Below, piece by piece: positions 47,279 through 63,972 of a stretch of DNA of 64,000 nt. A program made the position numbers and the translations under genes. The notes under the pieces were generated by a model. The model ran no database searches, was not told where the DNA came from, and was given only the letters and a program-made list of their open reading frames with translations. How positions within the stretch are numbered: the stretch's first letter is position 1; each line of letters starts with the position of its first letter. The DNA comes from Candidatus Peribacteria bacterium (GTDB lineage: Bacteria > Patescibacteriota > Gracilibacteria > Peribacterales > Peribacteraceae). Location: positions 550,722-614,721 of the forward strand of contig JAHFJN010000001.1 in the NCBI GenBank assembly GCA_023245865.1, read 5' to 3'.

Positions 47279-47353
47279 GGCCCCATCGTCTAACGGTTAG
47301 GACGCAGGATTTTCATTCCTGCAATCCGGGTTCGATTCCCGGTGGGGCTGCCA
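47279..47353 (+). tRNA. tRNA-Glu (anticodon TTC), CCA encoded
   Basis: GGCCCCA pairs with TGGGGCT (one G-T), T8 follows, the D arm is CGTCTAACGGTTAGGACG-like, the anticodon arm is CAGGA-TTTTCAT-TCCTG with TTC, and the T arm is CCGGG-TTCGATT-CCCGG. Discriminator G73 and CCA close it. It is also the integration site of the element to the right. Confidence 0.95.
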
Positions 47354-48940
47354 TAGTGAAAAATCGACATCAGAAATACTATGTTTTGGCTTAGGAATCA
47401 CGAAGGATCGAAGTTCGATCCGCTCTGATTTCTGGTTCATCGCTTCCAAGCCTTCTTTGATCTTCAAGAACGGAAATCTGGCTTCACACTGCACAATCCC
47501 GTCTTTCATTGTCCAGTTCGAGCCAATTGCCGTGAGGATAACTTTCTGAGTATCCACGCTGCCTATATCGAAGAACTTCAAGGCGTTGAAAGAGAATTCA
47601 AAGGTTTTGATGGTCCTATCTATTGCAGTATCTACATTCAATTCATTGTCATCGAGAAGCCTTTTGGCATGGTCTCGTTCTTTAGTAAGCGAGTTCTTTT
47701 GCACTTTAAACTCATCTTCACTAATTACTGAGCGGTCCATGTTATCAACTGCCACATAGAGTTTTACAAGATTCTGAATGGCTGCCATAGCATTGTCGTA
47801 CTTGCGTCGGAACTCTGCCAACTGCTTCTGCTGCCCTTTCTTATCCATCTCATGCATCCGCTCCATTTTATCCTTCAACCAAACTAGCAATCGCTCTGAG
47901 ATCGTTATGGCTTCGATATACTTCCTGAGTTGTGGAGTCATCTCATCTTTATTGAGCTGTACGGTCTGGGAACACGGACCCTTCTTCTTTGTGCATCGAT
48001 AATAGAGATGCACCCGTACATCCCCGTTCTTTTGTTTTTTTCGTTGAACATCACAGGTAATCATTGAATCGCATTCAGCGCAGTGAATCAGACCAGTGAA
48101 GGGAGAATTATGCTTTCGATTATTCGGCCTACCGTCCCTCCCTAGAATCATTTGCGCCCTCTCATACTCGGCATAAGTAATCATTGCGGGATGTTTCCCT
48201 TTGTAGAATTCTTTCTTCCACCAGAAATAACCCGCACAGAAAGGCGAGGCGAAAATTTTATAAAGACTACTGAGTGTGACTGGATGCTCTGGGCGCTTCT
48301 TAGTGGCACGGGCGGTCATGCCCCAGTCTTCCACCATGATGTACCAGATTTGTGGGACGGTGTAGCCACCCGTCAGCAGGAGCCTCCATGCCTTCTGCAT
48401 GTTTTCATACCGAAGATCATCTTCAGCGATAAAGCATCGACCTCGCTCACCTGGATTGATGTTGCTATAGCCAAGAGGAGCTTTCCCAGGGAACTGTCCA
48501 ATCTTGCACTTCGTGGTCATGCCTCTAGTCACATCTACACCCAACTTTTCCGATTGGTACTTTGATTGAGAGAGGGCAAAACTGAGCATCATTTTGCCCT
48601 CTGGCGAATTACTGAAAAAATAGGAACCGAACTGCAAATCTTTTATGACCTTGCGATCTAGTGCGTAAATCACCTCAGCTGCATCAATTGGGTTGCGGCT
48701 TAGACGATCAGGATGCCAAACGATTATCCCATCTGCTTCACCAGCCTCTATGCGTCTAAGCATGTCTTTGAACTTGGGGCGGTTGTAGGGCTTGAAGGCG
48801 CTACCGTCCTCCTCAATTTCCTCTACGATCTCTAGGTGCTGGAACTTCAACAGCAGCTCTTGGCGTTGCGATTGGATCGAGAGCGCCTGTTTCTCTTCGT
48901 CGGTGCTTCTACGGGCATACAAGAAGTATTTATAGGCCAT
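47297..48940 (-). CDS. Large serine recombinase of the integrated element
   Basis: 547 aa. N-terminal resolvase domain with catalytic Ser in YARRSTDEEK, and VWHPDRLSRNP; then a recombinase domain, a zinc ribbon (CAECDSMITC...CTKKKGPC) and a coiled coil. The final residues QPHRESNPDCRNENPAS and the stop codon are encoded by the antisense strand of the tRNA-Glu gene, overlapping it by 57 bases. The enzyme is therefore in place at the attachment site, as expected for a tRNA-targeting integrase. Confidence 0.93.
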   Translation of the reverse strand: MAYKYFLYARRSTDEEKQALSIQSQRQELLLKFQHLEIVEEIEEDGSAFKPYNRPKFKDMLRRIEAGEADGIIVWHPDRLSRNPIDAAEVIYALDRKVIKDLQFGSYFFSNSPEGKMMLSFALSQSKYQSEKLGVDVTRGMTTKCKIGQFPGKAPLGYSNINPGERGRCFIAEDDLRYENMQKAWRLLLTGGYTVPQIWYIMVEDWGMTARATKKRPEHPVTLSSLYKIFASPFCAGYFWWKKEFYKGKHPAMITYAEYERAQMILGRDGRPNNRKHNSPFTGLIHCAECDSMITCDVQRKKQKNGDVRVHLYYRCTKKKGPCSQTVQLNKDEMTPQLRKYIEAITISERLLVWLKDKMERMHEMDKKGQQKQLAEFRRKYDNAMAAIQNLVKLYVAVDNMDRSVISEDEFKVQKNSLTKERDHAKRLLDDNELNVDTAIDRTIKTFEFSFNALKFFDIGSVDTQKVILTAIGSNWTMKDGIVQCEARFPFLKIKEGLEAMNQKSERIELRSFVIPKPKHSISDVDFSLWQPHRESNPDCRNENPAS

Positions 48941-50360: not shown

Positions 50361-52313
50361 TTATTCGGTACTGGAATTAAGTGGATCTGACCCCGTGTTC
50401 CATTTGAAGTGTGAGCGGCATTCTTCCGAGCTGAACCACATAAAGTCTTCCTGGAACTGGATACCCTTTTCGGTTGTTAGATCGTCAGGGTCCCACTCCT
50501 CGCAGATGCCGAGGATTTTCATTGTCTGCATTTCGTGGAGAGCCGTTGGCTTTGATACCTTTAAGACTTTCTCCACTTGTCCCGTTGTAATCCTCCCGCC
50601 ACGTTCGATAAGTGCGTGCAGCAGCTCTGCACGATGCCCTGGGGCAGAATCGCAAGCGAGCAGGACCACGCATGGCATGTCCTCATCCGTAATGTGTTCC
50701 CTCCCAAGAGCAACAGCGTGGCCTCTGGCGAGGTTGTAAAGCAGCTGGTTGAGTCGGTCAGGTTTCTCAATGACGGGAGAGTGGTACACCAATTCTTCGC
50801 CCGTATCGTTGCGCTCCCTATCGGTATTCAATGTCCCACGGAGCTTTGCCAAGAGGCTCGCGCATCGTGCGATGATCATGAGATGGCTTGCCTGATCTTT
50901 GGATTTATCCCATGCGATGCCGTCACGGTGCTTTGCCCAGAGTGTTCGCAGCAGGTCGCCCGTTACTTTACGACACACCATTTCTTTCTCCTTACAGGCA
51001 TTGCCCTGTAATTGGCGCACAAGCTCCTCATTCGTCTTTGTCTTCATGTGCAGACCCAAGAAGAACAGGCGCGGTCCCTGGTTTCCCATGACCTTCCAAA
51101 CGCGCCTTGGGATAGGCGTAGAAGCCGCGAGCAACATGAAAAGGTAATCGCCTGTGCGGGTCCGTTGCCCGTGAACTCCTCCATCCGTTGCAAGTCCCTC
51201 TCCATCGAGTACGCGGGTAAGAATGCCCACGTTTGAGATAAGGTCCTCCTCTCGCGCAGAAAATACCGTAGCGAGGTCGCGGATGCAGAACATGCGGTAT
51301 TTAAGGCGAGGAAGCAGGTCTACCTTTTCCAGGTCTTCACGTTTGACGTTTGCGGCATTCGATACGAAGGACGCGGGACTAAATTTATCCGATGGATACA
51401 TAAGTTCGGGAAGCCCAGACTCGGCAAAAAAGTTAATTGTTATCGTTTTGCCAGCCGCTGGAACATCGATGAGAACGAGTGCGAAGGGATTGGTAATGTC
51501 CTTGATGAGCAACTGTGCGACGGTGCTTAACGCGATCTCAGAGGCTACAACGAGTTCCTGAAAGTTCTCCCGAATAACGCTCCTCCATTCGTTGATTTCG
51601 ACAGGCTGCTTTGGCGCAGTCAGTAGAGCAACTCGTGGTCGGCTGTCATTTTCATCCTTCTTTTTATCACCTGATTTTGGTGTTTTTTTGGCGAAGGACA
51701 ACAGTTCGGTCTTGAAGTCCTTTCCCTTTTTCTTGCAGTGGCGAGCGAAGTCAGTGATGTCGCCGCCATCGCCAAGCAGTTCGGGTAATTCAATTCTGAA
51801 AAGCTCAATATCAGGTCTCTTTTTTTCGAAAAGACGCATCGTTTTGTCGGCTCCCTTCCTGCCCGCATCATCGAGGTCAAAACAAATAGTGACCTTGATA
51901 CCTTTTGGGAAGTATTTGAGCCATTCTTCTTTGAAAGTTCCTGCGCCACCAGTTGAGCAAATTGCCTCTATTCCATTCCCGATAAGCAAGAGTGCGTCTG
52001 GTTCGCCTTCACAGAGAATGATGTCCGTTGCATCGCCAATGTAGGGCAACGGATACAGCGTAGCTGGGCTTCCTTTGGGATATACCAAGTTTTTAGGTTG
52101 ATTCTCCTTACCGTCACTTGGTCTCTTCAGCTTATAGAAAAGCGGTTTGCCCTCTGCATCACGGATAGGGATTACAACCCATTTGTTCTGCGCGTGGACA
52201 GTCCATGCGATGCCCTGGCTCTCCAGGATGTCCTTGGACACGCATCGTTCCTCAAGCCAGTACTTGAGTTCACCAGAGGGCAACGGCTGTAACTTGAGGG
52301 GTTTCTGTGTCAT
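50361..52313 (-). CDS. TOPRIM primase-like protein with ATPase region
   Basis: 650 aa from ATG 52313. A TOPRIM domain shows ILCEGEPDALLLI (catalytic Glu) and CFDLDDAGRKGADK (DxD). The second half has LIDVPAAGKTITINFF, a Walker A-like loop, and a C-terminal winged-helix-like region (RGGRITTGQVEKVLKVSKPTAL, in part). It probably primes or initiates replication of the element. The start overlaps the stop of the upstream 92-aa gene (ATGA). Confidence 0.7.
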   Translation of the reverse strand: MTQKPLKLQPLPSGELKYWLEERCVSKDILESQGIAWTVHAQNKWVVIPIRDAEGKPLFYKLKRPSDGKENQPKNLVYPKGSPATLYPLPYIGDATDIILCEGEPDALLLIGNGIEAICSTGGAGTFKEEWLKYFPKGIKVTICFDLDDAGRKGADKTMRLFEKKRPDIELFRIELPELLGDGGDITDFARHCKKKGKDFKTELLSFAKKTPKSGDKKKDENDSRPRVALLTAPKQPVEINEWRSVIRENFQELVVASEIALSTVAQLLIKDITNPFALVLIDVPAAGKTITINFFAESGLPELMYPSDKFSPASFVSNAANVKREDLEKVDLLPRLKYRMFCIRDLATVFSAREEDLISNVGILTRVLDGEGLATDGGVHGQRTRTGDYLFMLLAASTPIPRRVWKVMGNQGPRLFFLGLHMKTKTNEELVRQLQGNACKEKEMVCRKVTGDLLRTLWAKHRDGIAWDKSKDQASHLMIIARCASLLAKLRGTLNTDRERNDTGEELVYHSPVIEKPDRLNQLLYNLARGHAVALGREHITDEDMPCVVLLACDSAPGHRAELLHALIERGGRITTGQVEKVLKVSKPTALHEMQTMKILGICEEWDPDDLTTEKGIQFQEDFMWFSSEECRSHFKWNTGSDPLNSSTE

Positions 52314-52588
52314 AGGAAGCAGGTGGAAAGGAATTCGGCTGCCTCCTTCAAAGAGCATTCGTTGATGTGCATCACGAGATCCAAAGTGGACCCCTGTGAT
52401 ACGCCACCCTGCTCTTTGCCTGAAAACCGCTTCCAGGTGTTTGTTTTCTCAAACAATGTGAGCGAGGTTATCTCGCCATCCACTCTCATGGCATACGCAC
52501 CTGCTCCCGTCTTCACAACTTCAACACCAATCTGATGTGCGACTTCAAGGATTGGGATTTGCCGTAGAGCATCGAAGTTCTTATGCAT
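52310..52588 (-). CDS. Cys-less CHC2-like primase N-domain
   Basis: About 92 aa from ATG 52588 (an in-frame start at 52729 would add 47 residues). It follows the CHC2 primase zinc-finger plan (IPILEVAHQIGVEVVK, SLTLFEKTNTWKRFS, STLDLVMHIN, LKEAAEFLS), but the metal-binding Cys/His are gone. Coupling by ATGA to the TOPRIM gene suggests the two make one split primase. Confidence 0.6.
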   Translation of the reverse strand: MHKNFDALRQIPILEVAHQIGVEVVKTGAGAYAMRVDGEITSLTLFEKTNTWKRFSGKEQGGVSQGSTLDLVMHINECSLKEAAEFLSTCFL

Positions 52589-56008: not shown

Positions 56009-57055
56009 TTATTCACTTAGCCAAAACCAATACTCATTCTTTAGCCTATCGCTTAAACGATAGGAATTGGCATGAGAAAGGACTCCAAGATAGGAATGGA
56101 GAGATTGTTCAACTGACTCCTTGCTACCCGTGCCATTCCTACAGGCTATCGCTCTCAGGTGTAGCTTTCTGAACATTCGTTGTTTTGTGCGAGTGCGAAC
56201 AACCCTGCAATGAGGCAAAAGAACGTAGCCGAGGAAATCTATTCCCTGACGATACCTCCGCATTGAGATTTTCCGAGGATGGAGATCAAGGCACAGATAC
56301 TCCTGAAGAAACGCCCTTATAGGCTGGATGAGGCCACGTAAATACTCAGGATCATTCGAGACTATGGCAAAATCATCGGTATAGCGGACATAGTTCTGAA
56401 CGCGCAGAGTGTGCTTTATGAATTGATCCAGCTCGTTCAGATAGACGTTGGCAAAAAGTTGGGAAGTAAGATTGCCAATAGGAACTCCCTTGGTTGCAGG
56501 AGTAAATCGAGCCGATTTGAAGCTGCCCACAATATCTTTGAGGAGCCACATTGCATCATCATCTTTCATGCGTTTTCCAAGGATGTTCAGCAAAATATTG
56601 TGGTCAACGCTATCAAAGAACTTATGGATGTCGCACTGTAGAACAAAGCAGCGTTCATGACCATTTCGGCTGATCTTACTCAGCATTTTCTCCAAGGAAT
56701 CCACGGCTTTATGAGTCCCTTTGCCATCACGACAAGAAAATGAATGTGAAATAAACGAAGGTTCAAAGATAGGATTCAAAATGGAGAAAACTGCATGATG
56801 CAGAATGCGGTCACGGACTGTGGCTTTGTGAATGTGCCGCTGCTTGGGGTCGCAGATGAAGAAGGCAGAGTAAGGGCTGTGCGTGTATGTCCGTGACTCC
56901 AACTCCCTGTGCAGCGCGAAGGTATTTTCTTCCAGCTTCCACTCAAATTCCTGTACGTCAGTCCGAGACCCCTTGCCTCTCTTAAAACCCTCCCAAGATG
57001 AGAATAAGTGCTCTAGCGCAATGATGCGGTTGAATATATCCTTGTGAACTTTCAT
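56009..57055 (-). CDS. DGR reverse transcriptase
   Basis: 348 aa from ATG 57055. DGR-type RT marks: VPIGNLTSQLFANVYLNELD in place of the group II PQGxxxSP motif; RYTDDFAIV (catalytic YxDD); QCDIHKFFDSVDHNILL; IDFLGYVLL. It copies the template RNA into cDNA with errors at adenines. The start is only 10 bases from the divergent avd gene. Confidence 0.93.
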   Translation of the reverse strand: MKVHKDIFNRIIALEHLFSSWEGFKRGKGSRTDVQEFEWKLEENTFALHRELESRTYTHSPYSAFFICDPKQRHIHKATVRDRILHHAVFSILNPIFEPSFISHSFSCRDGKGTHKAVDSLEKMLSKISRNGHERCFVLQCDIHKFFDSVDHNILLNILGKRMKDDDAMWLLKDIVGSFKSARFTPATKGVPIGNLTSQLFANVYLNELDQFIKHTLRVQNYVRYTDDFAIVSNDPEYLRGLIQPIRAFLQEYLCLDLHPRKISMRRYRQGIDFLGYVLLPHCRVVRTRTKQRMFRKLHLRAIACRNGTGSKESVEQSLHSYLGVLSHANSYRLSDRLKNEYWFWLSE

Positions 57056-57065
57056 ACACTTTCTT

Positions 57066-57416
57066 ATGGAGGAACTGGATATTCCCATCTTCAAACGGGC
57101 TTACGAACTCTATAAGACCATGCACGGTTACAGAGGAACCGTGCCTAAAGCAGATCGGCATACCCTCTGGCAGCGCATTGAAAGTCTTACTTTGGAGGCG
57201 TTGGAAGGTATTCTGCTGGCCAGTCAGCTTTCCAAAACCCAAAAGCTCCAGCCGCTGGAGCAAGTGAGCGTGAAGCTCAATATGCTCCGTGTCCTTCTGC
57301 GCCTTGCCAAGGATATCAAGGCCATTGATCTGAAGAAGTACGCCACATTGGAGATGATCGTTGATGAGATGGGCAGGATGCTTGGCGGCTGGATCAAGTC
57401 TGTGAAGGAACGATAG
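57066..57416 (+). CDS. avd: DGR accessory variability determinant (Avd)
   Basis: 116 aa forming four helices: IPIFKRAYELYKTMHGYRG, KADRHTLWQRIESLTLEALE, MLRVLLRLAKDIKAIDLKKY and MIVDEMGRMLGGWIKSV match the Avd four-helix bundle. Avd forms a pentamer that binds template RNA and the RT. Here it runs opposite to RT, TR and targets, which is unusual. Confidence 0.88.
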   Translation: MEELDIPIFKRAYELYKTMHGYRGTVPKADRHTLWQRIESLTLEALEGILLASQLSKTQKLQPLEQVSVKLNMLRVLLRLAKDIKAIDLKKYATLEMIVDEMGRMLGGWIKSVKER

Positions 57417-57437
57417 TAGGTTTGGCTGAGAGGGAAG

Positions 57438-57551
57438 TTCCGCGAGAGGGAGAGGCCGAGATCGTCATTCGAGTTGTCAGGCCTATCGTTGTTGACGTTC
57501 GCGCCGTCTGAATCGCAATTGCCAAGATAAACGAGGTTGCCATCCGAGGAG
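57438..57551 (-). repeat. DGR template repeat (TR)
   Basis: Aligns without gaps to 57960-58073 (VR1) and 59043-59156 (VR2). On the minus strand it reads like AAC/AAT-rich coding text (SSDGNLVYLGNCDSDGANV...). Of 26 template adenines, 18 differ in VR1 and 17 in VR2; none of the other 88 positions differs. A GC-rich, nearly A-free end (57440-57460) is the expected initiation site for mutagenic homing. An open frame passes through it, but it is not a gene. Confidence 0.95.
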
Positions 57552-57949: not shown

Positions 57950-58948
57950 TCAGAGGAACTTCCGCGAGAGGGAGAGGCCGAGATCGCCATCCGAGACGCC
58001 AGGCCTACCGCCGCCGACGCCCGCGCCGCCCGAATCGCAATAGCCAAGAAAAACGAGGCCGCCATCCGAGGAGAGTGTGGGAGTCCAAGTGTAATTATCT
58101 TCCAAGATACGTTCGCCCTTATTTCGGTAGCTCTGGAGGAAATCATACAGAGCTTCAGCAGGAGTATGCCGCATGAGACGATTGAGCTTCAGCACAGAGA
58201 GCTGCTTAGCCGCTTCTTCCCAATTACTATCCATGAGTTTTTCAATGTTCTTCTTCAATTTCTTGAACTCATCAACGGCCACCTGATAGGGAGGAGGCAA
58301 TGGCTTTCCTGCAAACAGCGTGTCCGTCACATAATCCGCAAGCAGTTGGGTCTGTTCAAGATAGTTCTTTTCAGTTGAGTCTGGCAGTACCGTGTCCGAT
58401 GTGAATGCCCAGCAGAGATCAGGAGTTTCTTTCGTGAAGAAATCCTCTTTCTCGTACCAGTCGGTATCGTACAGAACCTTATCCCCATCCTTTTCAAAGG
58501 TATCAGATAGAAGCTCGTTCATCTTCTGCATGGTAAGAGGTTTGCCATCTGGGGCTTTATTCACGCGCAGCCGCAACGTGTGTCCCAACTTCGCATGACG
58601 TTCCAATTCTTCCTTGGAAGGCAAGGTAGGGATATCTGCTTCCCTCAGTTCAATGCCGAATACTTTCTTCACTTCCTCAATTCCAAAGAAGCGGCCATTC
58701 ATCATCTCTTTGGCTTTCTCGATGGATGCACTTGGCTTTGCGGATGGCACAGTAAGGACGCTGCTCAGTTTTTGCTGGAGAGTGCCAAGGAGCCTATGTA
58801 ATTCCTTCTTCTCTGCTGCTGGAGCATGGGGCAGCCTGGAAAGATTGCGTACCTCTTCAAGAATCGGATCAGCAACTTGCCGCACGTCCGCGCTGCCCTG
58901 GTAGCCAGGGCTGCTTTGTACTCGATGGATGAAGGATTCGTTTTCCAT
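57950..58948 (-). CDS. DGR target protein 1 with variable C-terminus
   Basis: 332 aa. Residues 87-332 are paralogous to the C-terminal half of target 2: RFFGIEEVKKVFGIELR, RHAKLGHTLRLRVNKAPDGK, LYDTDWYEKEDFFTKETPDL, LLADYVTDTLF. The last about 40 residues are the VR: SSDGGLVFLGYCDSGGAGVG...LSLSRKF. This looks like a C-type-lectin-like DGR fold. No AAA+ domain. It may act as a separate recognition subunit. Confidence 0.9.
   Translation of the reverse strand: MENESFIHRVQSSPGYQGSADVRQVADPILEEVRNLSRLPHAPAAEKKELHRLLGTLQQKLSSVLTVPSAKPSASIEKAKEMMNGRFFGIEEVKKVFGIELREADIPTLPSKEELERHAKLGHTLRLRVNKAPDGKPLTMQKMNELLSDTFEKDGDKVLYDTDWYEKEDFFTKETPDLCWAFTSDTVLPDSTEKNYLEQTQLLADYVTDTLFAGKPLPPPYQVAVDEFKKLKKNIEKLMDSNWEEAAKQLSVLKLNRLMRHTPAEALYDFLQSYRNKGERILEDNYTWTPTLSSDGGLVFLGYCDSGGAGVGGGRPGVSDGDLGLSLSRKFL
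57960..58073 (-). repeat. DGR variable repeat 1 (VR1)
   Basis: 114 bases; differs from TR only at 18 template adenine positions. Several changes are A to G, giving Gly-rich residues (GAGVGGGRPG). Confidence 0.95.
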
Positions 58949-59032: not shown

Positions 59033-61057
59033 TCAGGGGAACTCCCGCGAGAGGGAGAGGCCGAGAACGCCAAACGAGAAGTCAGGCCCATCGTAGAAGA
59101 CGCGCGCGCCGTCTGAATCGCAACGGCCAAGAAAAACGAGGTAGCCATCCGAGGAGACTTCATTCGTCCATGTCCATTTGTCCTTTAGAGTGCGCTTTTT
59201 ATCACTTGTGGCGCGGAGCGTTTGCACGAAATCAAACAGCGCAGCCGCTGGCTTGTGGCGTAGCGTGTTGAGTTTCAACTTTGACAGTTTCTGTGCGGCA
59301 GCTTTCCAGTCGCTGCTCATCAGGCGTGTAATTTCGGGCTTTGCAGTGTCAAATTCTCGCAGTGCCTCCTCATACTCCGCTGGCACTTTCTCCCCCTTGA
59401 AGAGAGTGTTGCGAACGTAGTCAGCGAGGAATTCCGTCTGCTGCAAGTAGTTCTTTCCAGTAGAGCCAGAGAGAACCGTATCCGTGGTAAAGACCCAAGC
59501 GGTTTTCGGAACATCATTCGTGAAGAATGATTCTGTTTTGTACCAGTCTCTTGGGTACAACACTTTTCCATCTTTATCCTTCGCAAATTTCTCCTCCATC
59601 AGTTCTGCCATGCGTTTCATCGTGAGAGGTGTGCCATCGGCTGCTTTGCTTACGCGCAGCCGCAGCGTGTGGCCGAGTTTGGCATGACGCTCAATCTCCT
59701 TTCGTGGAGGCATTGCAGGGACTTCAGAAGGCTTGAGTTTGATGCCGAATGATTTTTCCAATTCCGTGAGACCGAAGAATTGCCCTGCTCCCATCAATTC
59801 TCTGGCCTCATGCTCCTCTGCCGAGGTCGCGGGTACGGCTTCTGCCGTGGGAACAGCACCTTCTAGGAGATCAAGAATCTGCTGCTTGCGTTCCGCAATT
59901 TCCGCATCAATATCACGTCTTCCCGTTTCCAATCCTTTGCGCTTGGAAGGGGTAGCGGGTGCGGTGTAGGAAACATGGCTCACAAGCTCCTCCAGCTTTT
60001 GCCTGTCCTCATCGGCAAGCAGCTTATTGACGTAGTAGTACCTGAGAGCTTTCTGAAAGGTCTCAGTGATATCGCCATTGTAGAAACGCGATACGAAGTC
60101 ACGGACGCGCCGTGGCTCCTCACGGTCATCGTAAGCGAAAGGCTGAGGCTGGCCGCTAGCAATGGAACGCTGCTGCAAGAGACCATTGGCAGCCGCATGG
60201 AATTCCATGTACTTCTCAGCGATCAGCTCAATGCCAGGAATCTCCGCCATTTGCTCATCGGTTAGCGCATAGTCTCTGGGTATGACGAGCGCATTGCTTT
60301 GCACATGCTCCTCTTTCTTGCCCACTCCAAAGAGTGCTTTTGTGGAAAACTTGAACGCTTCTGGGGGCAATCTGTCAGGCAATTTTTGATACACCCATCG
60401 GCGCAATTGAGCAGGGTCAAGCGCGGGACGCTGGAGATAGCCCTTACCAGGAGGGTTCATGAAAGCTGCAACCTTCGTACATTCTTTGTTTGTGGAAATA
60501 TCTTCTGAGGCATCCTCAGACAACACCACTTTGCCGCCTCGTTCCAATGCATCCAGTACCTCATGGAGACGGATAAGAACGTTAGGCGCGGCGGCATTAA
60601 ACTCATCAAGGATGATGACTTTTATCTTTCCTTTCTCCTGTCGTAGTCCGCTTGTTACCCTGCCATCTGCAAAGACATATTCAGGGTCTGTAGGACCCGT
60701 TTTATTGGCATTAGGAATGTACTTGCCCATAAGATCTTCCACGTCCGTAGCACCATTGAGGTTTACATAGTGGACTTCCCATCCAAGTTCAGATGCCATC
60801 TTGCGAACGGCAGTCGTTTTTCCAATGCTCGTGCCAGCCTCAATCAGAATCGGCTCTCCCATGAGGAAGCTGATAGCGAGCTTCTGCTGCAACTGGAGCA
60901 CGGAGAAACGGTCATTGATGTATTCAGCGTATTTCCCTTTTTCAGGAATGAGCGGACTCTCGCGGTTTTCCGCTTTTGGCAGTCGCACTCCCGCATAGGA
61001 GACAGCATCATCTGCGTCTTCTATAGGTGCCGAGAATGTATCGGGTTGAGTGCTCAC
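59033..61057 (-). CDS. DGR target protein 2: MoxR-type AAA+ ATPase with variable lectin-like C-terminus
   Basis: 674 aa. AAA+ domain about 50-330: Walker A-like EAGTSIGKTT (Lys80), Walker B VIILDEFNAA (Asp151, Glu152), sensor AAFMNPPG. Linker about 360-425. Residues 427-674 match target 1, and the last about 40 are VR2 (SSDGYLVFLGRCDSDGARVF...LSLSREF). A MoxR ATPase carrying a hypermutated domain is rare. With the vWA gene upstream it resembles MoxR-vWA chaperone pairs. 3 bases separate it from the 139-aa gene. Confidence 0.92.
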   Translation of the reverse strand: MSTQPDTFSAPIEDADDAVSYAGVRLPKAENRESPLIPEKGKYAEYINDRFSVLQLQQKLAISFLMGEPILIEAGTSIGKTTAVRKMASELGWEVHYVNLNGATDVEDLMGKYIPNANKTGPTDPEYVFADGRVTSGLRQEKGKIKVIILDEFNAAAPNVLIRLHEVLDALERGGKVVLSEDASEDISTNKECTKVAAFMNPPGKGYLQRPALDPAQLRRWVYQKLPDRLPPEAFKFSTKALFGVGKKEEHVQSNALVIPRDYALTDEQMAEIPGIELIAEKYMEFHAAANGLLQQRSIASGQPQPFAYDDREEPRRVRDFVSRFYNGDITETFQKALRYYYVNKLLADEDRQKLEELVSHVSYTAPATPSKRKGLETGRRDIDAEIAERKQQILDLLEGAVPTAEAVPATSAEEHEARELMGAGQFFGLTELEKSFGIKLKPSEVPAMPPRKEIERHAKLGHTLRLRVSKAADGTPLTMKRMAELMEEKFAKDKDGKVLYPRDWYKTESFFTNDVPKTAWVFTTDTVLSGSTGKNYLQQTEFLADYVRNTLFKGEKVPAEYEEALREFDTAKPEITRLMSSDWKAAAQKLSKLKLNTLRHKPAAALFDFVQTLRATSDKKRTLKDKWTWTNEVSSDGYLVFLGRCDSDGARVFYDGPDFSFGVLGLSLSREFP
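59043..59156 (-). repeat. DGR variable repeat 2 (VR2)
   Basis: 114 bases; differs from TR at 17 template adenines and nowhere else. Its substitutions are different from those in VR1, so the two repeats have diverged independently. Confidence 0.95.
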
Positions 61058-61060
61058 GAA

Positions 61061-61480
61061 TTAAGATTGGTAAACGATGCCTGTACTGGCAAGAAAATCC
61101 ATGCCGTTCTTTTGCGCCGAAACCAGCGTGTCTTTCGTCAGGAGGAGTACGAGCGTAACACCCTCGTAGCGGGGCGTAGAGACCTGTGGTTGCATCGTAG
61201 AGCGGTTCCACATCTCCACCTGGCCTGTCGGATATTGCACTGAAAAATCATAGTAATCTTTCGCGTGGGAAGCATCAGCGAGAATGCTGTATGCCTTACC
61301 TGGGTGATCGGAGGCAATGGAGAATTCCAAAGGAGTATTCACAGAAGCGAACCCTAGAACATCTAGCTCCCTTTTGAGAGATGCCAGTTCCTCCTCATCT
61401 TTCGCAATCACAAGCGACACCTCCTTCTGCCCTAGGGCATAGGTGATGAAGTCGGTGATAGCGGATGTTGACATGCTCAT
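61061..61480 (-). CDS. Conserved hypothetical protein between vWA and AAA+ genes
   Basis: 139 aa. Soluble alpha/beta protein with a helical N-terminus (STSAITDFITYALGQKEVSL) and beta-rich rest (YEGVTLVLLLTKDTLVSAQK). No family recognised. Spacing of 3 bases to the AAA+ gene and 19 to the vWA gene suggests it is part of the same complex, perhaps as an adaptor. Confidence 0.6.
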   Translation of the reverse strand: MSMSTSAITDFITYALGQKEVSLVIAKDEEELASLKRELDVLGFASVNTPLEFSIASDHPGKAYSILADASHAKDYYDFSVQYPTGQVEMWNRSTMQPQVSTPRYEGVTLVLLLTKDTLVSAQKNGMDFLASTGIVYQS

Positions 61481-61499
61481 ATTATATTACATTATAACA

Positions 61500-63629
61500 C
61501 TAAATACCTCCCTGATCAATGACACTTCGCAGAAGCGTAGCCAGTTTCTTGGATAGCTCCTTTGCCTCAATATCGGCAATGCTATGAGGATAATAGGAGG
61601 AAACGTGTCCTGTTCCCAGTCCTATACCCAGTCCAATAAGATACTGATCGGTATTTTCAAGAATACTACGCACCTCCATTGAGAGTTCATATTTGCCACG
61701 AGGATGCATGGGCGATTCCTCAGGCTTTCCATCAGAAAGGACAACGAGGAACTTTTCTGATTCCTTCTGTCTCGCAAGCCGCTCAGATGCTTGTCTGAGC
61801 GCCCAACCGTCATCGTTATACTGTGCCTTACCCGTATCGCTGCAATCAGATACCTCTTTGAGCATTCCTCCCATCTGTTCTTGCTTCTGTGTGCTCAGCT
61901 CCTCTCCGTAGGACTGGTACGGGTAGATACGATCATTAAATCCCAGTATCTCCATCTTGATTGAGAGCCGATTCAGCACCTCAGCAAGGGCGACAACCGC
62001 CTTAAAGGTCTCTTGAATTTTTCTGCCATTATTCATGGAACCAGAGAGATCTACGAGAAGCGTAATAGCGTAATCCTCCTCTGTAGGAAGCTCTCTCCGT
62101 TCCCATGCCTTGCTCTGCACGGCAGGGACTCCTTTCGCTCTTTCCTGCATCCGCTTGGTCATGTTGATACGCTTGCCTGTGGGGTTCCCTTTAAGCCATT
62201 TGCGAGCGCGGCGTTCCGTGAATATCTCGCGCAGATCATTCTCTAGTTCATCAATGATGGGCAGCACTTCTCTGCGTGTTGCTTCGTACACATTGGCATC
62301 TTTTCCCAGAAGCTGTTCCACTTGTCTCTTGAACTGTTCCACTTCGGGATGTGGAACGGTTTTCTCAAGATCCTCACCTTCAGAGGAGTCCACATCTTTC
62401 TTCACTTCCTTTTTCTGTGCAGCCTCAGGTGTTTGCGAGAGCTTTCCTTGAATGGCATCAGCAATCTCATCCGCAAATTCTTTCAGCGCAGCCTGGGCTT
62501 TTTCTTCCAATTCCCTGCGTTCTTCCTCAGGTAACTCCTCAATCGCTTTACGGATTTTTTCTTTCAGGCTCTCAGGCAAGCTATCCAAATCCACAATGCC
62601 GACTGGCTTGCCATCGTCGGCTGTAGCTTCAAGAGCGGCCTGTGGCGTTCCTTGTGTTTCCTGCCCGCCCTCTTGCCCCTTCTGAGCCAGTGCTTTGGCA
62701 ATGGCCTGAGCCACGGCTTGCTGGATAGCTTCCCCCAAGGCTTGCCGTTCCTCATCGGTGAGGCCATCTATGAACGATGAATCCTCCTTCTGCTGCATGT
62801 CCTTCAAAAACTCCTGCATCTCCTCATCTTTTTTGTCTTTCTCAATGAGGGTCTGAAAGAGCGGCCAAACCTCATCACGGTTGATCTCGTAGCTCTGCTT
62901 CGAGTACTCGCTAATAACCGCTTCACTTGTGTCTGCTTCTGCCCTGTTTGGATATCTCCACCATGAATCCCTCGCAGCTTCTAATGTCTTTGCTACGACA
63001 TCACGCACCTCTTCAGGAAGATCAGGTGTAAGTTCCGAAGGCTGCTCCTGCACCTCCCTAAACCATTGCTTGATGTACTCAAATCCAGCGAGCATGAAAC
63101 GGGGTCGGAAACCTATTTTCTCTTTGGATTCCTCCTTTGCTTTTTTCTCCTCGTCCATATCTGAGGCATACGCAGCTGCCATCTGCTTTCCAAAGAGAGG
63201 GTAGGCTTCAGCAACGAAGTTATTGATGCGTGGATCTTCAATGGAATTCATCATGAATGGGAATCCAGGTTGCTTCCATGTCTCCAATGGAATGTGATCG
63301 GTGCGTGAAATTCTCCTATGGCCGCCTTCATGCGAAATCACAAATCGCAGATAATCCATCGGTTTCTCCAGCAAATCCTTGGGATCGATCCGCACGATGT
63401 TTTGATCAAAATCCCAATGCCATCCTGCCCCAGGTTCATTCAACTCCACAGGCATGGCGAAGTCCTTTCCGATGAACGATGCGAGAGAGGAAAGAATTTG
63501 CCGTTTCTTCAAAATCTCCGCTTGCTGAGGACCATCAAATGACTTGAGAATTTCCTGTTCGCGGACCGCACGAAATCTACCGTTTTCCTCTCTATCTTCA
63601 TCAGGCCGTCCCCAGTCTGGACGTTTCAT
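61500..63629 (-). CDS. vWA-domain protein with HEGGH zincin-like motif
   Basis: 709 aa. N-terminal region with VISHEGGHRRI (residues 97-107, HExxH) and SIEDPRINNF (Glu131), the pattern of gluzincin-like domains fused to vWA proteins. The middle is Glu/Gln/Lys-rich and helical (about 275-430). The C-terminal vWA domain has MIDAS DLSGS (Asp527, Ser529, Ser531) and VVLSDGKP. It resembles CobT-type partners of MoxR/CobS AAA+ ATPases. It heads the operon before the 139-aa gene and target 2. Confidence 0.88.
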   Translation of the reverse strand: MKRPDWGRPDEDREENGRFRAVREQEILKSFDGPQQAEILKKRQILSSLASFIGKDFAMPVELNEPGAGWHWDFDQNIVRIDPKDLLEKPMDYLRFVISHEGGHRRISRTDHIPLETWKQPGFPFMMNSIEDPRINNFVAEAYPLFGKQMAAAYASDMDEEKKAKEESKEKIGFRPRFMLAGFEYIKQWFREVQEQPSELTPDLPEEVRDVVAKTLEAARDSWWRYPNRAEADTSEAVISEYSKQSYEINRDEVWPLFQTLIEKDKKDEEMQEFLKDMQQKEDSSFIDGLTDEERQALGEAIQQAVAQAIAKALAQKGQEGGQETQGTPQAALEATADDGKPVGIVDLDSLPESLKEKIRKAIEELPEEERRELEEKAQAALKEFADEIADAIQGKLSQTPEAAQKKEVKKDVDSSEGEDLEKTVPHPEVEQFKRQVEQLLGKDANVYEATRREVLPIIDELENDLREIFTERRARKWLKGNPTGKRINMTKRMQERAKGVPAVQSKAWERRELPTEEDYAITLLVDLSGSMNNGRKIQETFKAVVALAEVLNRLSIKMEILGFNDRIYPYQSYGEELSTQKQEQMGGMLKEVSDCSDTGKAQYNDDGWALRQASERLARQKESEKFLVVLSDGKPEESPMHPRGKYELSMEVRSILENTDQYLIGLGIGLGTGHVSSYYPHSIADIEAKELSKKLATLLRSVIDQGGI

Positions 63630-63756: not shown

Positions 63757-63972
63757 TTATCGCCCTTTCTTTCCTCTCTTGGGTTTCTGCGATGCCTTCC
63801 GTTCGCGTTCGCGCTGGAAGGCCAGAATATCGCTCTCCAAGAAGACTTTTCCCGTAGAGATTTTCTGACACCTCATTTTCCCCGTCTCTACCAGGTAATC
63901 AATGTACTGACGGGAAACCTTGAGATACTTCATCACATCTCCCATGCCCATGAGTTTGGGAAGTTCTTGCAT
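63757..63972 (-). CDS. Excisionase/MerR-type HTH protein
   Basis: 71 aa. LPKLMGMGDVMKYLKVSRQYIDYLVETGKM (in part) is a helix-turn-helix of the HTH_17/excisionase type with a wing (CQKISTGKVFLESDILAF), followed by a basic tail. It could be the excisionase of the element, or a regulator of the downstream vWA-DGR operon. Confidence 0.7.
   Translation of the reverse strand: MQELPKLMGMGDVMKYLKVSRQYIDYLVETGKMRCQKISTGKVFLESDILAFQRERERKASQKPKRGKKGR

Follow-up and report, generated by a model that had tools for sequence, protein, structure and literature searches.

Two arrangements related to the one described here are already known: ATPase-fused DGR targets in CPR bacteria, and clade 5A DGRs in which a MoxR-like ATPase neighbours one short and one long target. 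As far as PMC10907252 treats them, the first is exemplified, by way of a 2017 report, by a CPR-type genome encoding an RT, Avd and an AAA ATPase whose C-terminal region is varied by the DGR, and the RTs of most CPR bacteria are placed in a different clade than 5A. MoxR-type ATPases are described as remodelling proteins with vWA partners (PMC7159879), and the DGR tips of such systems have been proposed as sensors of invaders (PMC10907252).

The locus analysed here lies in a 64,000-nt stretch of DNA (the window) from Candidatus Peribacteria bacterium, positions 550,722 to 614,721 of the forward strand of contig JAHFJN010000001.1 (assembly GCA_023245865.1). Judged by sequence comparison, it adds to the known systems the pairing of a tethered chain with a free one that has an N-terminus of its own, a split motor and an exchanged ATPase front. 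We propose that Target 1 (T1) is probably the free chain of a two-form intracellular hypervariable sensor that feeds a MoxR-like/vWA machine, with Target 2 (T2) as the tethered form.

Layout of the locus

By all features examined, namely a DGR-type RT, Avd, adenine-only TR/VR changes and a TR/VR boundary mark, the locus is a DGR (Table 1). The minus-strand reading order is vWA, 139-aa protein, T2, T1, TR and RT, with Avd placed between TR and RT and opposite in strand to the RT. The neighbouring genes carry a MoxR-like AAA+ domain and a vWA partner (PF07728, PF11775/PF00092), with the ATPase front of T2 spanning residues ~1-385 and the sensor core and variable tip lying C-terminal to it. The small protein is present in 7/7 loci with a window-type ATPase, as detected by profiles built here.

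Table 1. Features of the DGR locus, in coordinates of the window.
Feature	Position	Strand	Basis or description
Target 1 (T1), free sensor chain, 332 aa	57950-58948	-	own N-terminus ~75 aa, core aa ~79-288, variable tip
Target 2 (T2), AAA_5 (MoxR/dynein-type) ATPase, 674 aa	59033-61057	-	PF07728 8.1e-10
VR1, variable repeat of T1	57957-58073	-	match to TR
VR2, variable repeat of T2	59040-59156	-	match to TR
TR, template repeat serving VR1 and VR2	57435-57551	-	comparison with both VRs
Avd	57066-57416	+	PF22296 1e-17; NF033474 81 bits (cut-off 80)
DGR reverse transcriptase (RT)	56009-57094	-	PF00078 1.9e-24; YTDD motif by eye
Conserved small protein, 139 aa, between vWA and ATPase genes	61061-61480	-	relatives
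vWA protein, CobT-like C-terminus	61500-63629	-	PF11775 4.7e-15, PF00092 1.8e-6; MIDAS-like DLSGSM by eye
HTH_17-like gene upstream of vWA	63757-63972	-	87% identity to one in L023; association only

Avd and the RT are encoded on opposite strands in 15/15 loci where both were found (the window, L004, L021-L025, L092, L093, L095-L097, L104, L118 and L121), and since it sits between TR and RT in the window and in most of the others, an RNA running from TR to RT would be antisense to it. The window's own genome holds a second DGR-type RT, 63% identical to the first (G000:C3:850916-851911; L118 8824-10658), with an opposite-strand Avd, a TR-like stretch by eye and a likely target that is apparently split into two frames. 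Serine recombinases and a Toprim protein lie near the DGR locus in the window (47297-48940 and 50361-52358), and serine recombinases also lie close to DGR loci in L021 (11679-12467), L023 (10062-11411) and L024 (749-1582); the sensor cassette may be located on mobile islands.

Scans of the window proteins in Pfam, NCBIfam and PADLOC gave no hit to VMAP, iSTAND, FtsH or beta-propeller families, of which distant versions are possible, and recognised no known effector. On the question of a C-type lectin fold, the FGE/DUF1566-type Pfam hit was absent and the fold of the tip is unmodelled at pLDDT < 50. The T1 model reached a mean pLDDT of 67.8, dropping below 50 over residues 276-322 so that the tip is unreliable, and the T2 model (pLDDT 40.6) was set aside; the underlying alignments were four rows deep, comprising window and L004 sequences. 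Foldseek and VIA-align returned nothing trustworthy for T1, the best match being a designed helical protein that covers residues 1-67 with Z 7.7, and a PDB sequence search returned one match, with E 0.071, which we take as chance.

Shared core, separate N-termini and rewritten tips

The initial annotation equated T1 residues 87-332 with T2 residues 427-674. Local protein alignment agrees, placing T1 42-331 on T2 385-673 with F87, F88 and G89 opposite F427, F428 and G429. Identity is 55% over a 211-column core from which the variable tip was excluded, and a search of the window's own genome (1,106,234 bases, 11 contigs) with T1 recovered three matches only: T1 itself, the T2 tail (E 2.7e-88, excluding chance) and the TR. 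The shared region had been called the variable half of the ATPase; the sharing stands, but variability is confined to the last ~38 codons, and the remaining ~200 shared residues form a constant scaffold. The description of T1 as a stand-alone copy of this part likewise holds for the core and tip, although T1 is not a mere copy, having a conserved N-terminus of its own.

The first 82 residues of T1 scored 16.2 bits against a profile of the free N-termini of four relatives, compared with 3.3 bits for the best of 200 shuffles, 5.6 for the window's vWA protein and 1.0 for the tethered protein of L021, the maximum among all tethered and vWA proteins tested being 5.6. By this measure, the ~75-residue N-terminus of T1 is kept in the relatives' free copies and missing from the ATPases tested. 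A second N-terminal type, common to the free copies of L093-L097, five loci that include both ATPase subfamilies, had zero matches in any tethered protein, and a third is common to the copies of G390. L104 and L092 each have two free copies, which within each locus share the same start. Profile comparison detected no relation between the three types tested, and so one common mode of docking is not established, which counts against our preferred explanation.

The proposal that one TR serves both a fused and a free target is borne out by adenine-only changes in both tips. VR1 differs from the TR at 18/26 adenines and VR2 at 17/26, each with 0/83 changes at other positions (hypergeometric p 9e-15 and 1e-13, respectively). 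Twelve adenines are changed in both repeats, and only 4/12 carry the same new base, which argues that VR1 and VR2 were written separately. The tip comprises 38 codons, 18 of them with a template adenine, and the tips of T1 and T2 differ at 13/38 residues. Just past the tip, at 57437 (minus strand), the TR reads C and both VRs read G; the window and L021 to L025 share the corresponding pattern, CGGAAC in the TR against CGG(A/G)AG in the VR, for both VRs of each locus. We take this mark to resemble the IMH*/IMH of known DGRs, and it would act as a homing signal. Long stretches free of non-A change were also found in both forms in L092, L093, L095 and L097, in both free targets of L104 and in the free copy of L096.

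The changes in VR1 are mainly A to G (15/18), unlike those in VR2 (5/17; Fisher p 0.002), the A-to-G share in ten other VRs counted, VR2 included, being 108/170. The T1 tip is unusually rich in glycine.

Templates appear to have crossed between the two DGR loci of one genome (G043), L021 and L022, where three of the four VRs fit the TR of the other locus. Both L021 VRs fit the L022 TR (0/82 non-A changes each) and not their own (10/82 and 9/82), and the free VR of L022 fits the L021 TR (1/82) and not its own (10/82), while the tethered VR of L022 fits its own TR (0/82). A single assembly swap would leave some of this crossing in place. PMC10907252 describes a TR acting in trans in Thiohalocapsa PB-PSB1, a precedent from which G043 differs in that its two loci apparently write each other's targets.

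Pairing, exchange and history of the two forms

With T1 as the query, matches were found in 9/74 genomes of the family; profile A1 had matches in 15/353 genomes of the class and in 27/380 drawn from the phylum, the sets overlapping and the window's own genome being counted. Relatives were absent from viral contigs in two scans, and a scan of genome contigs yielded one, L004. Using profiles built here, we tabulated the window, L004 and 30 of 31 fetched stretches (L066 left out). A tethered copy is present in 16 loci (the window, L004 with two, L021-L024, L026, L092-L097 and L100-L102), and a free copy adjoins it in 11 of these (the window, L021-L024 and L092-L097), with none in view in L004, L026, L100, L101, whose contig begins 1.7 kb downstream, or L102. 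An RT is in view in 13 loci (the window, L004, L021-L025, L092, L093, L095, L096, L097 and L104), beside Avd and a TR in 13/13 and with a free copy in 12/13, L004 being the exception with its two tethered copies; the first target of L025, which may have been tethered, is cut.

Among the tethered loci, a free copy occurs in 10/11 with an RT in view and in 0/4 without (Fisher p 0.0037); L094, where the contig ends inside the free gene and an RT lies on another contig, was dropped from this test. The p value is descriptive only, as the rows are non-independent (G043 giving two), RT pieces lie on other contigs in G471 and G478, and G471 has free-type copies elsewhere. The free/tethered pairing recurs in many distant relatives, and the free copy is apparently a functional component. 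The loci that have only tethered copies in view (L004, L026, L100, L101 and L102) count against our preferred explanation, as do the unmodelled tip, the lack of a recognised effector and the G390 array described below, which has no recognisable RT of this kind.

The same survey bears on the reading that T1 is an independent hypervariable binding protein, apart from the ATPase and riding on the same DGR, which we consider unlikely. It would account for an N-terminus unrelated to the ATPase and for the free-type copies with no recognised ATPase nearby in L027, L028, L061 to L064, L103 and L105. However, several of these orphan loci are near contig ends, and across the 13 RT loci the free gene is accompanied by an ATPase gene in 11 and by a vWA-type gene in view in 10, counts in which L004 lacks a free copy and contig ends truncate L024 and L025.

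Front and tail of T2 have discordant relatives and hence different histories. The ATPase front is 62-65% identical to those of L004, L094, L095 and L100 and has no significant match in two loci of the window's own family, L021 (E 1.1) and L023 (E 8.2), whereas the tail is 53-54% identical to L021 and L023 and 31-41% to L004, L094, L095 and L100. The ATPase of L021-L024 belongs to another AAA_5 subfamily, and another vWA-like protein lies upstream in L021-L023, yet in L021-L024 the tail is followed by the free copy, TR, Avd and RT, as in the window. On these comparisons, different ATPase fronts have been combined with a retained tail, free copy and RT. Together with the occurrence of one N-terminal type of free copy beside both ATPase subfamilies, this suggests that it may be the tail, and not the motor, to which the free chain responds by recognition. 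A transglutaminase-like domain (PF01841) was seen in vWA-type partner genes of L026 (3545-5980) and L092 (2161-4680), and may serve the other ATPase subfamily as an effector.

Motor and sensor are on separate chains in two further genomes. In L104 (G510), an AAA_5 ATPase (1.6e-7) without core or tip lies between two free targets, whose differences from one TR are adenine-only over 118 nt (19/34 A changed) and 87 nt (18/24). In the tandem arrays of G390 (L098, L099), 16 ORFs share an N-terminal segment, which is joined to the core in 14 and to WD40 repeats in 2, and a coreless AAA_5 ATPase lies among them; a search with the window RT found no RT in G390 and the tip profile matched one core-bearing ORF only, so the array is probably not DGR-driven. 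Both cases lend indirect support to a role of the free chain in trans.

They also weigh against T1 as a competitor or damper, a motorless tail that, by occupying the partner or ligand of the ATPase form, would make this form harder to fire. All the pairing data are compatible with such a role, as are the absence of an ATPase front from a protein that shares the core and tip and the use of the same template, hence a similar ligand space. We nevertheless regard it as quite improbable, as the ATPases of L104 and G390 are tailless and leave no tethered form to compete with, and a damper would not need independently rewritten tips, yet VR1 and VR2 differ.

Over the constant parts of three close pairs of free copies, dN/dS is 0.079, 0.050 and 0.136, and for tethered tails it is 0.042 and 0.094, a third tail pair being saturated (NG86; the values are rough at dS 1.3 to 2.7). 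Between the window T1 and either the L021 free copy or the T2 tail, dS is saturated, and the selection figures concern relatives only. The initial annotation had considered that T1 might prove to be a decayed pseudogene in relatives; intact frames and dN/dS of 0.05-0.14 rule this out. The tethered frame of L024 is interrupted near a contig end.

Core trees were built without the N-terminus and with the variable tip set aside, because a shared template pulls tips together within a locus. In these, four relatives contribute a clade of free copies (97/97) and a separate clade of tethered tails (100/99), and the window T1 falls with the tethered tails. The AU test weakly rejects a clade uniting T1 and these four free copies (p-AU 0.034 and 0.027), sisterhood of T1 and T2 survives the AU test (p-AU 0.19), and at 63 diagnostic columns T1 is tethered-like in 26, free-like in 18 and neither in 19; the core tree is compatible with more than one origin of T1. 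A simple recent duplication of the T2 tail is unsupported, since the N-terminus of T1 matches the relatives' free copies. On the best 41-row tree, from which weak or partial rows were omitted (L027, L028, L029, the truncated copy of L025 and the G390 copies except four), 9 changes of the free/tethered label are required, well-supported branches forcing at least 4 of them, and so the forms exchanged sequence, or arose, more than once. In L092, one free copy groups as sister with the tethered tail of its own locus (100/99), which shows, on this tree, a recent exchange between the forms. That T1 is a dispensable tail duplicate, retained only through homogenisation of its tip by the DGR, is highly improbable, for although T1 adjoins T2 and such copying between forms happens, the frames are intact, the constant part is under constraint in relatives, the N-terminus is its own and conserved, and the free copy is recurrently present.

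Proposed working and comparison with known systems

In the two-form sensor that we favour, both chains join a constant core to a ~38-residue tip rewritten from one template, and the tip would bind an unforeseen ligand, for instance a protein of an invader, in the cytoplasm. This location is suggested by the T1, T2, vWA and 139-aa proteins, none of which has a strongly hydrophobic stretch. The free chain would use its N-terminus or core to dock to the ATPase/vWA assembly, and a bound chain, tethered or docked, would drive the ATPase/vWA pair to remodel a partner and so elicit a response, the free form allowing one machine to hold more than one specificity. We infer docking, ligand sensing, ATPase activation, cytoplasmic location and any role in defence from sequence. 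In some loci the free version is the only sensor and the ATPase stands alone; the machine is thus split into interchangeable motor and sensor parts, and free chains are predicted to dock on the motor in trans. If this is true, bacteria with tiny genomes would own a multi-chain, anticipatory recognition system.

A further step, possible but doubtful, would be a bacterial two-chain receptor in which a tethered and a free chain, separately rewritten from one template, assemble on one ATPase/vWA machine with combinatorial specificity, the free chain being a plug-in slot. Specificity would then be combinatorial across chains, akin to two-chain antigen receptors, and the slot could be multiplied, as in the G390 array, or refitted with another sensor fold such as WD40, while the two loci of one genome would apparently supply templates for each other's targets.

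A literature search of limited depth found no description of a free/tethered target pair in CPR, and priority is not established. Like the ATPase-fused CPR target, as described in PMC10907252, T2 carries a C-terminal variable region on an AAA ATPase. Unlike that system, as far as the same source portrays it, window-type loci have a recurrent free second target with its own N-terminus, a defined set of vWA, small protein and ATPase, and a front exchanged relative to the tail. The locus resembles clade 5A in that one DGR has two targets that differ in length, with a MoxR-like ATPase adjacent; in clade 5A, by the account in PMC10907252, the ATPase is a separate gene, whereas in the window the long target is the ATPase itself. 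It also resembles the VMAP-type MoxR-vWA ternary conflict systems with a DGR, which PMC7159879 describes as combining a MoxR-like ATPase, a vWA protein and a DGR-diversified sensor. In most of those systems, as presented there, the variable domain is fused to the vWA protein, whereas in the window the ATPase and a free chain carry it.
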